From: Tessaracoccus rhinocerotis
GTDB taxonomy: Bacteria; Actinomycetota; Actinomycetes; Propionibacteriales; Propionibacteriaceae
Reading direction: 5' to 3'
DNA: 64,000 nucleotides
Assembly: GCF_007197885.1 (NCBI RefSeq)
Contig: NZ_VKKG01000001.1
Coordinates: 186,001-250,000, forward strand
Shown here: positions 1,433 to 3,915 of the stretch, in pieces
How positions within the stretch are numbered: position 1 is the first letter of the stretch
How the letters are laid out: the number at the start of each line of letters is the position of its first letter
The notes under the pieces: model-generated
Told to the model about the DNA's origin: nothing
Seen by the model: the letters and a program-made list of their open reading frames with translations, nothing else
Databases searched by the model: none
Position numbers and translations under genes: made by a program

Positions 1433-1494
1433 GGCACCCATTGTGCCCGGCCTGGAGGCCCGCACTAGATTGGCCGAAGCTGAAAGGACAGACC

Positions 1495-2919
1495 GTGCTG
1501 CTTGAGACCTCACTGGCGTGGTGGACAGTGCTTCCGTTCGTCGTGTTGCTGCTGTGCATCGCCATCCTGCCGCTGATCCCGGCAACCGAGCGCTGGTGGG
1601 AGCACAATCGAAGCAAGCTCATTGTCGCCCTGGCACTCGGGATCCCGGTCGCGGTGTTCATGAGCATGCTCGAGGGCCCCTCCCCCGTGGTGCACGCGCT
1701 CGTGGAGTATGCGCAGTTCATCATCCTGCTGCTCGCCCTGTTCATCATCTCGGGAGGAGTTCACCTTGGCGGCGACATCGCCGCGCGACCGCGCACGAAC
1801 GCCGCCTTCATCGGCTTCGGCGCCCTGATCGCGTCCTTCATCGGAACCACCGGCGCCGCGATGCTGCTCATCCGGCCGCTGCTGCGGACCAACCACCAGC
1901 GCATGTACCGCGCCCACACCGTCGTCTTCTTCATCTTCACCGTCGCCAACGCGGGCGGCCTGCTGACGCCGCTCGGCGACCCACCCCTGTTCCTGGGAAT
2001 GCTGCGTGGCGTCCCGTTCACGTGGACGTTCAGCCTGTTCCCGCAGTGGCTGTTCGTCAACGCCCTGCTCATCCTGAGCTACTACGCGCTGGACAAGGTC
2101 CTGCACGCGAAGGAACCGGCCGCCAACATCATCTGGGACCTCTCGGAGGTCAAGCCGCTCTACGTCGTCGGGCGCCGCAACCTGGTGTTCCTGGCCATGG
2201 TGGTGCTCGCCGTGGCACTCGTCCCGTCCATCGACCTGCACGGCATCGAGGCGGGGCACCCACTCTGGTACCACTACGTGCCCTGGCGGGAGATCATGAT
2301 GCTGACGGCGGGCGCGCTCTCCCTGCTCGCTGGCAGCCGGGACGTCCGCTACGTCAACAACGGCTTCAGTTGGGGGCCGATCCTGGAGGTCGCCGCCCTG
2401 TTCGTCGGGATCTTCCTGACGATGATCCCGGCACTGCGGGTCCTGGGGCAGCTGGCACCAAAGCTGCCCCTCAACGACGTGACCTTCTTCCTGCTCACCG
2501 GTGGCCTCTCCGCGGTGCTGGACAACGCCCCCACGTACGCGACGTTCTTCGAGATGGCCCACACCCTCGGTGAGGGCACCACCGGCGTCGAACTCGTGGC
2601 CGGGGTACCAGTGAGCTTCCTGACCGCGATCAGCCTGGGTTCGGTGTTCTGGGGGGCGATGACGTACATCGGCAACGGCCCCAACTTCATGGTGAAGGCG
2701 GTGGCGGAGGAATCGGGGGTCCCGATGCCGAGCTTCGGCGGCTACATCGTGTGGTCGGGCCGCTACCTGCTGCCGATCCTGATCGCCATGATGTGCATCT
2801 TCGTCGCGGGCCAGTGGTGGGCGAAGGGGCTCGGCGTCGCCCTGACCCTCGCCATCGTCGGCGCTGCGACCGTCAGCCTGCGCCGGGCGAGGCAACTGGA
2901 GACCACCACGGCGGCCTGA
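1495..2919 (+). CDS. Sodium:proton antiporter / CitMHS_2-type ion transporter
   Basis: A 474-residue polytopic membrane protein with roughly a dozen hydrophobic segments. The blocks TTGAAMLLIRPLLR and LLTPLGDPPLFLGM, and the later LTGGLSAVLDNAPTYATFF, are typical of the ion transporter superfamily that includes NhaD, ArsB and the CitMHS_2 group, where the paired TG/DNAPT motifs form the substrate site. Members are annotated as Na+/H+ antiporters or citrate-metal transporters; the substrate cannot be decided here. The GTG at 1495 is preferred because GAAAGGA lies just upstream and it precedes the first membrane helix; the in-frame TTG at 1441 lacks such a site. Its stop is followed at once by the repeat array before the sigma factor gene. 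Confidence 0.85.
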   Translation: MLLETSLAWWTVLPFVVLLLCIAILPLIPATERWWEHNRSKLIVALALGIPVAVFMSMLEGPSPVVHALVEYAQFIILLLALFIISGGVHLGGDIAARPRTNAAFIGFGALIASFIGTTGAAMLLIRPLLRTNHQRMYRAHTVVFFIFTVANAGGLLTPLGDPPLFLGMLRGVPFTWTFSLFPQWLFVNALLILSYYALDKVLHAKEPAANIIWDLSEVKPLYVVGRRNLVFLAMVVLAVALVPSIDLHGIEAGHPLWYHYVPWREIMMLTAGALSLLAGSRDVRYVNNGFSWGPILEVAALFVGIFLTMIPALRVLGQLAPKLPLNDVTFFLLTGGLSAVLDNAPTYATFFEMAHTLGEGTTGVELVAGVPVSFLTAISLGSVFWGAMTYIGNGPNFMVKAVAEESGVPMPSFGGYIVWSGRYLLPILIAMMCIFVAGQWWAKGLGVALTLAIVGAATVSLRRARQLETTTAA

Positions 2920-3003
2920 GTGTTGCCCAACCGCCGCCGGGTGTTGTCACCGGAAGGCCTGGTGTTGGCACCCCTGGGGCTGTTGTTGTCGGTCCTGCCG
3001 CAG
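2920..3003 (+). repeat. Four phased 21-bp repeats with a TGTTG core
   Basis: GTGTTG occurs at 2920, 2941 and 2962, and TTGTTG at 2983, that is exactly 21 bases apart; the next bases are CC, TC, GC and TC. The array begins immediately after the transporter stop codon and ends 39 bases before the sigma factor start. A 21-base spacing equals two DNA turns, as in operator arrays for dimeric regulators, but it is also a multiple of three, so it could be read as heptads (VL...) if the sigma factor began at the GTG at 2920. No ribosome binding site supports that start. Confidence 0.6.
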
Positions 3004-3042
3004 CGCTGGCGGGGCACCCGTCCGCCCACGAGACTGCGGTGC

Positions 3043-3915
3043 ATGGCCTTCCTTGACAACCACCTGAACGCACCCCTGCTCACCGCTGACGAGGAGGTCC
3101 GGCTGGCCCGAAGGATCGAGGCCGGCGTCTATGCCGAGCACCTCCTCGCCACCGAGCGGGCGGGCGACGTGGCGCTGGTGGCCGTTCGAGACGACGGCCG
3201 GGACGCCTGGCAGGAGCTCTGGACGGCGAACCTTCGCCTGGTTCGTAGGCACGCCATGGACTTCGCCAAGCGGCAGTCCCTGCCGGTGGACGACCTCTTC
3301 CAGGATGGCTGCATCGGCCTCGCCGACGCAATGCAGCGCTTCGACCACGGACGGGGGTTGCGCTTCACAACCCTCGCCCATGACTACGTCCGGCACGCGG
3401 TGGCCGCCAGCGCGGCCCGACGCGGCGGGATGCTCGAGGGACCGCTGCACCGCCAGCGCATCCGGCAGCGCATCCGACGGGCCGAGGCCGATGGGGGCCG
3501 GGTCGGCCGCCGAGAGTTGGCTGACTTGGTGGGGGCCAGTCCCCTGGCCGTCGAGATCGCACGGGGACACACGGCGTCGATCGACGAGGTACCGAGTGCG
3601 CAGGTGGTCTTCGTCGACGACTTCGACAGGGTCGAGCGGGTGGGGACCGACTTCCTGAACCTGCTCTCGACGGAGGCCGCGGAGTTCCTGCGGCTGCGCT
3701 TCGGCATCGGACGGCCCACGCACAGCCTGCGCCAGCTGGCGGCGCGACTGAGCATCTCCGAGTCCACTGCCCGCAGACTGGAGGCGGTCGCCCTCGAACT
3801 GGCACGCCGCGTGCTGGCCGGCGACGACGAGCGCTGCGTGCTGCCGTCCGAGACGGAGCTGGACCCGACGATGCAGGCCCTGGGCCCACGGCTGCTGGCG
3901 CTGGCAGCGGCCTGA
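3043..3915 (+). CDS. Sigma-70 family RNA polymerase sigma factor, atypical
   Basis: A 290-residue protein with a region 1.2/2 core (NLRLVRRHAMDFAKRQSLPVDD, then DLFQDGCIGLADAMQRFDHG at about residues 80-107) and a C-terminal region 4 helix-turn-helix (SLRQLAARLSISESTARRL, about residues 226-244). The segment after FDHGRGLRFTT, which recognises the -10 element and usually reads ATWWIRQAI, is replaced by LAHDYVRHAVAAS, so promoter specificity probably differs from the housekeeping factor. The start at 3043 (MAFLDNHL) is chosen because it begins the conserved part; a longer form from 2920 would add a proline/leucine-rich stretch. No anti-sigma gene is adjacent. It could be an alternative group 2 or group 3 sigma factor; its regulon is unknown. 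Confidence 0.8.
   Translation: MAFLDNHLNAPLLTADEEVRLARRIEAGVYAEHLLATERAGDVALVAVRDDGRDAWQELWTANLRLVRRHAMDFAKRQSLPVDDLFQDGCIGLADAMQRFDHGRGLRFTTLAHDYVRHAVAASAARRGGMLEGPLHRQRIRQRIRRAEADGGRVGRRELADLVGASPLAVEIARGHTASIDEVPSAQVVFVDDFDRVERVGTDFLNLLSTEAAEFLRLRFGIGRPTHSLRQLAARLSISESTARRLEAVALELARRVLAGDDERCVLPSETELDPTMQALGPRLLALAAA

Follow-up and report, generated by a model that had tools for sequence, protein, structure and literature searches.

The window, as the whole 64,000-nucleotide stretch of DNA analyzed here is termed, contains a sigma-70 family gene preceded by an array of four direct repeats, GTGTTGCCCAACCGCCGCCGG, GTGTTGTCACCGGAAGGCCTG, GTGTTGGCACCCCTGGGGCTG and TTGTTGTCGGTCCTGCCGCAG, read on the + strand at 2920, 2941, 2962 and 2983 (Table 1). 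The first copy begins directly after the stop codon (TGA, 2917-2919) of a CitMHS-type transporter gene upstream, which is missing from the same place in most relatives. At the left end of the window, a + strand gene (50-872) is split over the overlapping frames 50-496 and 396-872, in a frameshift-like manner near 380-400. An earlier note, made from the letters of this DNA, had pointed out GTGTTG or TTGTTG at exact 21-base steps in front of the sigma gene, and this periodicity was confirmed: a search for three GTGTTG copies 21 bp apart, allowing at most 2 mismatches, returned the array as its sole match within the window, and a mean of 0.00 matches in 100 dinucleotide shuffles of it. Tandem Repeats Finder, run at score 30, did not report the array, since just ~12 of every 21 bases are alike. 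Across the whole genome, KTGTTG-N15-GTGTTG yielded 7 matches versus 1 for the reversed control, and 5 of these fall within two arrays; a more degenerate scan of the same genome with 3 mismatches was uninformative (82 matches, mostly coding background, and 22 for the reversed control). The one further array in this genome has four copies and ends 61 bp before a DUF6459 gene that adjoins a secA-like gene.

Table 1. Coordinates of the features at the array and the sigma gene, as positions in the window.
Feature	Position	Strand	Remarks
CitMHS_2-type transporter ORF	1441..2919	+	Upstream neighbour of the array; start codon uncertain
Array copy 1	2920..2940	+	GTGTTGCCCAA...; ATG at 3043 lies 123 bp on
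Array copy 2	2941..2961	+	GTGTTGTCACC...; ATG lies 102 bp on
Array copy 3	2962..2982	+	GTGTTGGCACC...; ATG lies 81 bp on
Array copy 4, degenerate	2983..3003	+	TTGTTGTCGGT...; ATG lies 60 bp on
Predicted -10 hexamer GAGACT (G at -12)	3030..3035	+	7 nt before the start codon
Sigma-70 family gene, 290 aa	3043..3915	+	Regions 1.2, 2 and weak 4; predicted leaderless start at 3043
Region 2.4 segment D-Y-V-R-H-A-V-A	3382..3405	+	SigA/SigB: W-W-[VI]-[RK]-Q-A-[IT]-[TS]
His118	3394-3396	+	At the position of sigma70 Q437

The conservation of the array was assessed in the promoters of 30 same-genus (Tessaracoccus-type) sigma orthologues, chosen by protein homology alone, which together with the window make up 31 promoters. 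Of these, 27, window included, have at least one [GA]TGTTG no more than 170 bp from the chosen ATG, and none was found over that distance in the other four (L040, L041, L045, L056). Of 17 spacings between successive [GA]TGTTG copies, 14 are 21 bp and the others are 20, 13 and 8 bp; the period therefore does not drift freely in relatives. Of the 11 phased promoters, a count that includes the window and leaves out L036 for its ambiguous start codon, five have the last copy at -60, five at -61 and one at -59; the fourth window copy has the distance to the ATG that most phased relatives show for their final copy. A second group of sigma promoters carries a single copy at about -76/-77, in many of them flanked by TGTGGAAAAG-like and TTGTCCACAG-like boxes.

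The earlier note had offered heptad coding as an alternative, in which the GTG at 2920 opens an N-terminal extension of the sigma factor with a repeated Val-Leu heptad. An open frame does indeed span 2920 to 3915, and a 21-base step is divisible by three. The last-copy positions at -59, -60 and -61, however, represent all three reading frames relative to the ATG, the relative L051 has an in-frame stop between array and ATG, and unrelated genes are preceded by the same arrays. Protein-level conservation, which the note had named as grounds for abandoning a regulatory reading, was accordingly not seen: relatives preserve the DNA site and its distance to the ATG, not the frame. Heptad coding was rejected on this change of frame and retains hardly any probability, and the repeat is both real and a DNA-level, not a protein-level, feature. 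A steady 21-bp period in a non-coding array, with its last copy at a classic activator distance, makes cooperative binding of a regulator to one face of the DNA, as the note had proposed, the natural reading, and the results support it.

The same spacing was then followed at wider phylogenetic levels. GTGTTG-N15-GTGTTG has matches in 37 of 39 genomes of the genus, and the stricter GTGTTGYC-N13-GTGTTGYC in 118 of 198 Propionibacteriaceae genomes, covering 21 of 29 genera, with a single match in all for the reversed control. In other Actinomycetes the strict pattern occurs in 17 of 293 genomes, with one match each and 3 control matches in all; this set originally comprised 296 genomes, 19 of them matching, from which three family members (two matching, one not) were removed. 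A species-wide scan returned at least 117 stretches, and among the matches listed Propionibacteriaceae, including Cutibacterium, Acidipropionibacterium, Propionibacterium and Raineyella, showed arrays whose spacers are unlike one another, the remaining stretches listed being minisatellite-like or coding-repeat-like. An origin as a minisatellite or selfish DNA repeat with no regulatory role is suggested by the 21-bp GTGTTG arrays inspected outside the family, which among the matches listed are near-identical minisatellites, but it is contradicted within Propionibacteriaceae by spacers that are not conserved and by fixed distances to start codons, and we regard it as extremely improbable. Over 158 array units the conserved part reads aG-GTGTTG-T-C-c-g, in which the GTGTTG letters are fixed by the search itself, and the rest of the step is free. 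Some variants were also observed. In L139, L144, L157 and L161 the final step is 20 bp, not 21, and the last copy still lies at about -60. A Propionibacteriaceae metagenome-assembled genome (L230) has about seven GTGTTGTCC-like copies in succession with no start codon close behind. Three Cutibacterium species (L209:1484-1590, also L253 and L265) present a reverse-oriented array before a gene of ~222 aa, whose C-terminus resembles sigma region 4 (no Pfam match; NCBIfam E 0.054).

In order to identify the genes behind these arrays, 61 array loci (L104-L163 and L072) were taken up. Seven were set aside, L142 because it was judged to be coding and L144-L149 as part of a 60% complete genome (G008) with broken frames, and seven further loci belong to Tad pilin operons, whose leaders are longer. 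The 47 classified loci comprise 24 DUF6459, 13 AbiEi/DUF559-like, 6 E1-like and 4 DUF222-HNH genes, where "AbiEi/DUF559-like" and "E1-like" are names given by resemblance: Pfam gave no match for the one arrayed AbiEi-like protein examined, and the one E1-like protein tested matched a TOMM model below its cut-off. In G031, four AbiEi/DUF559-like genes each have their own array (L104, L105, L108, L109), and these genes are possibly a multi-copy regulon member of selfish or defence-like nature there. Between the last exact copy and the start codon, 39 of the 47 loci have 59-62 bp, 6 have 79-82 bp and 2 have 102-103 bp, a count that leans towards this pattern because start codons were sought only at 57-63, 78-83 and 100-105 bp; the unrestricted start-codon list covers 40-170 bp, and the 31 sigma promoters are a set not chosen by array. 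Tad pilin operons with GTGTTG sites show phased pairs or triples in 8 genomes, the pilin being unrecognised by the script in 7 of 38 loci.

All 59 arrayed promoters (the 47 classified loci and 12 of 12 arrayed sigma promoters) contain an NAnnnT hexamer 6 or 7 nt ahead of the start codon, which we take to be the mark of leaderless promoters; arrayed promoters lack an evident -35 element. Transcription of the window sigma gene would probably start, leaderless, at 3043, a predicted position at the edge of the 2990-3043 interval in which the earlier note had suggested looking for it. Sigma promoters lacking a phased array have the hexamer in 8 of 19 cases, never with T as its first base. This -12 base separates two sets of arrayed promoters: all 28 DUF6459 and HNH promoters have T there, as against none of the 31 sigma, AbiEi-like and E1-like promoters (Fisher P = 2e-17, uncorrected for relatedness).

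The sigma factor itself departs from its family in the segments that contact promoters. Its Pfam matches to regions 1.2 and 2 lie above the cut-off and that to region 4 just below it, its best NCBIfam match is a SigB model, far below cut-off, and its best PDB match is 7pp4; identity to two other sigma factors compared is 27-28%. The unusual -10-reading segment described in the earlier note is genuine when set against the SigA/SigB consensus (Table 1). The WW pair of region 2.4 is lost in 31 of 31 orthologues, and the Q437 position is occupied mostly by Arg, with His in four including the window; the -35-reading residues of region 4.2 are also changed in the window sigma. A search of the genome with the window sigma as query brought up four sigma factors, of which the window's alone lacks Q437 and the other three keep Gln. 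No orthologue distinct from SigA/SigB was found in G001, G006, G008, G012 and G014, two of which are 60% complete; G012 has many arrays although no distinct sigma orthologue stood out there. A search of genome contigs for related loci with a single sigma protein as query gave no match. According to the accessible text of PMC2613000, a promoter change from T:A to C:G at -12 is suppressed in E. coli by the sigma70 substitutions Q437H and T440I. The window sigma would be a natural counterpart of the classic laboratory suppressor Q437H, which accepts C at -12.

Promoters with C at -12 occur in the window genome at genes for DNA uptake. The Tad pilin promoter (GTGACGGATC-N13-ACCAGAGTGTGGGT) is almost the same as the comEA promoter, and a search for GTGACGGATC-N13-ACCAGAGTG with up to 3 mismatches gave 8 matches in this genome and 0 for the reversed control; the window itself holds no match within 3 mismatches. 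This com-box has GTGACGGATC as -35 and CAGAGT, with C at -12, as -10. All 8 matches lie before genes and 7 have the start codon 5-6 nt behind, namely those of comEA, a ComF-family gene, the CpaE homologue Ssd, DUF4192 and three AbiEi-like genes (a Pfam match in one of these three proteins); the eighth belongs to the pilin operon, with a longer leader. Ssd is the first gene of actinobacterial Tad loci. Of 7 com-box matches in the nearest relative, G026, six correspond to these kinds and one is unrelated; the control gave 1. In other clades the box differs, tending to differ alike at comEA and pilin, which is clear in G025 and G032; the covariation is modest (permutation P = 0.017 over 13 genomes), with close agreement confined to the clades of G000 (the window genome)/G026 and G025/G032. 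Direct control of comEA by the array was rejected, given that there is no array at the comEA promoters of 20 genomes: no GTGTTG pair, and only five single sites, were found in the 5.5-6 kb around comEC (20 of 37 comEC genomes). These promoters instead have a TCCACAG-like box and a leaderless-type -10; comEA was unrecognised by the script in 3 of 20 loci, the NAnnnT hexamer at 6-7 nt is missing in 5 of 17 comEA promoters, and T stands at -12 in 0 of the 12 that have it. The absence of an array at comEA, these hexamer gaps, the five genomes with no distinct sigma and the modest covariation set limits to the sigma/com-box step and not to the array. The pilin promoter of several clades combines array sites with a C-at-12 box, which ties both layers to DNA uptake.

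We therefore consider, with a probability of roughly 0.6, a chain leading from operator array to activator, from activator to sigma factor, and from sigma factor to the com-box genes. Each ~12-bp site (aGGTGTTGTCCG) would bind one unit of a putative activator, and the 21-bp step would set all units on one helix face, ending ~60 bp upstream of the leaderless start. The bound activator may then recruit RNA polymerase to promoters with no evident -35, switching on the sigma gene and, in the window genome, the DUF6459 gene. The sigma factor, having lost Trp-Trp, with His for Q437 and an altered region 4.2, would read the com-box with its C at -12, its presumed targets being comEA-comEC, comF, Tad ssd and pilin, DUF4192 and AbiEi/DUF559-like genes. 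At the promoter of the sigma gene itself the -12 base is G instead of C and a GTGA-type -35 is missing, and the factor therefore need not read it; with no such -35, this promoter may depend on the putative activator together with either sigma. Extended to the family, the data incline us, by a narrower measure, to a two-step competence switch of Propionibacteriaceae, in which a candidate activator on 21-bp-phased GTGTTGTCCG arrays would control a fast-evolving sigma factor whose natural Q437-to-His/Arg change would let it read the C-at-12 promoters of comEA-comEC, comF, Tad, AbiEi/DUF559-like, DUF222-HNH and E1-like genes.

Two other arrangements were weighed against this chain. The array could be a regulator's operator while another sigma factor, for instance of the ECF type outside the four-sigma comparison, reads the com-box and the window sigma serves only arrayed genes with C or G at -12. 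The sigma promoter and the com-box do differ in their -35, and the com-box search drew a blank in the window; the window sigma, however, is the only one of the four to lack Q437, the com-box has C at -12, and the Tad pilin promoter brings array sites and a C-at-12 box together in several clades, so that we consider this arrangement unlikely, if still a serious one. Alternatively, a cooperative repressor could coat the array and keep the sigma gene off, cooperative arrays being known from repressed promoters too. Repression is improbable, in that the array ends at about -60, with no overlap of -35 or -10 in the 47 classified loci, and the arrayed promoters have no evident -35, both of which are typical of activation.

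The proposed activator-sigma chain has a close parallel in streptococcal ComE/ComX, where direct repeats with a period near 21 bp likewise precede an alternative sigma gene. The ComE-type promoter trait, direct repeats of ~21 bp upstream of the -35, is also seen in the window array. A LytTR regulator was rejected for the window genome, in which the LytTR domain (PF04397) was not found, as compared with its presence in 5 of 14 control genomes. Unlike ComE/ComX, the sigma factor here is SigB/SigA-like with a region 1.2 and its best matches place it outside the SigX/SigH family, the pilus is of the Tad type and the site sequence is unrelated. With actinobacterial group 2 SigB it shares regions 1.2, 2 and 4, but its region 2.4 is not the canonical one: WW is lost, Q437 is His or Arg in most orthologues, and region 4.2 is altered. 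In streptococci a SigX-specific box precedes late competence genes (the SigX logic as outlined in the accessible text of PMC8467076), and the com-box before comEA, comF, ssd and pilin would be its counterpart if read by the window sigma. Micrococcus luteus competence relies on the same machinery genes, in comEA/comEC and tad clusters (PMC8467076 and PMC12849477, accessible text), and tad genes are required for its transformation (PMC8467076); its upstream regulators "remain to be identified" (PMC12849477), and the accessible portions of these two papers describe no array or sigma factor for it.

Regulation of competence in Actinomycetota is described as poorly understood in the accessible text of PMC12849477 (January 2026). 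Literature searches, in a scope without preprints and most subscription journals, found no publication on the array or the sigma factor, no paper on DUF6459 and none linking DUF4244 with competence; queries for GTGTTGTC with promoter (among the matches listed), for competence in Cutibacterium, Propionibacteri- and Tessaracoccus, and for direct repeats with ComE (as regards the array) returned nothing relevant. Together, the phased array and the com-box would point to a previously unrecognised natural-transformation switch in high-GC Gram-positive bacteria. Sigma gene, operator and com-box are all visible in one genome, which makes the question of competence control directly testable, and the array, carried by Cutibacterium species too, offers a family-wide landmark for tracing the putative activator and its inducing signal.

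Two known DNA-binding systems resemble the sites in part. In mycobacteria, PafBC recognizes RecA-NDp, TTGTCRGTG-N8-TAnnnT, as a single site 8 bp from the -10. The RecA-NDp core TTGTC(A/G)GTG resembles the GTGTTGTCAGTC copies here, but the latter have a GTG prefix and are phased, at -60 and further upstream; with the sites ending ~60 bp from the start codon, the arrays do not have the layout of the PafBC regulon. The DnaA box is TTGTCCACA. DnaA as the array binder is not supported, since the array copies read TTGTCCG/TTGTCA and have no ACA end; TTGTCCACA flanks single sites in other clades, and DnaA is still a candidate binder of the TCCACAG boxes. A DnaA-box-like TCCACAG box, or its inverted form TGTGGAAA, lies shortly before the com-box -35 in L370, L420, L428, L430, L432, L434 and L436, and a TCCACAG-type box also occurs beside single GTGTTGTCC sites in other clades.
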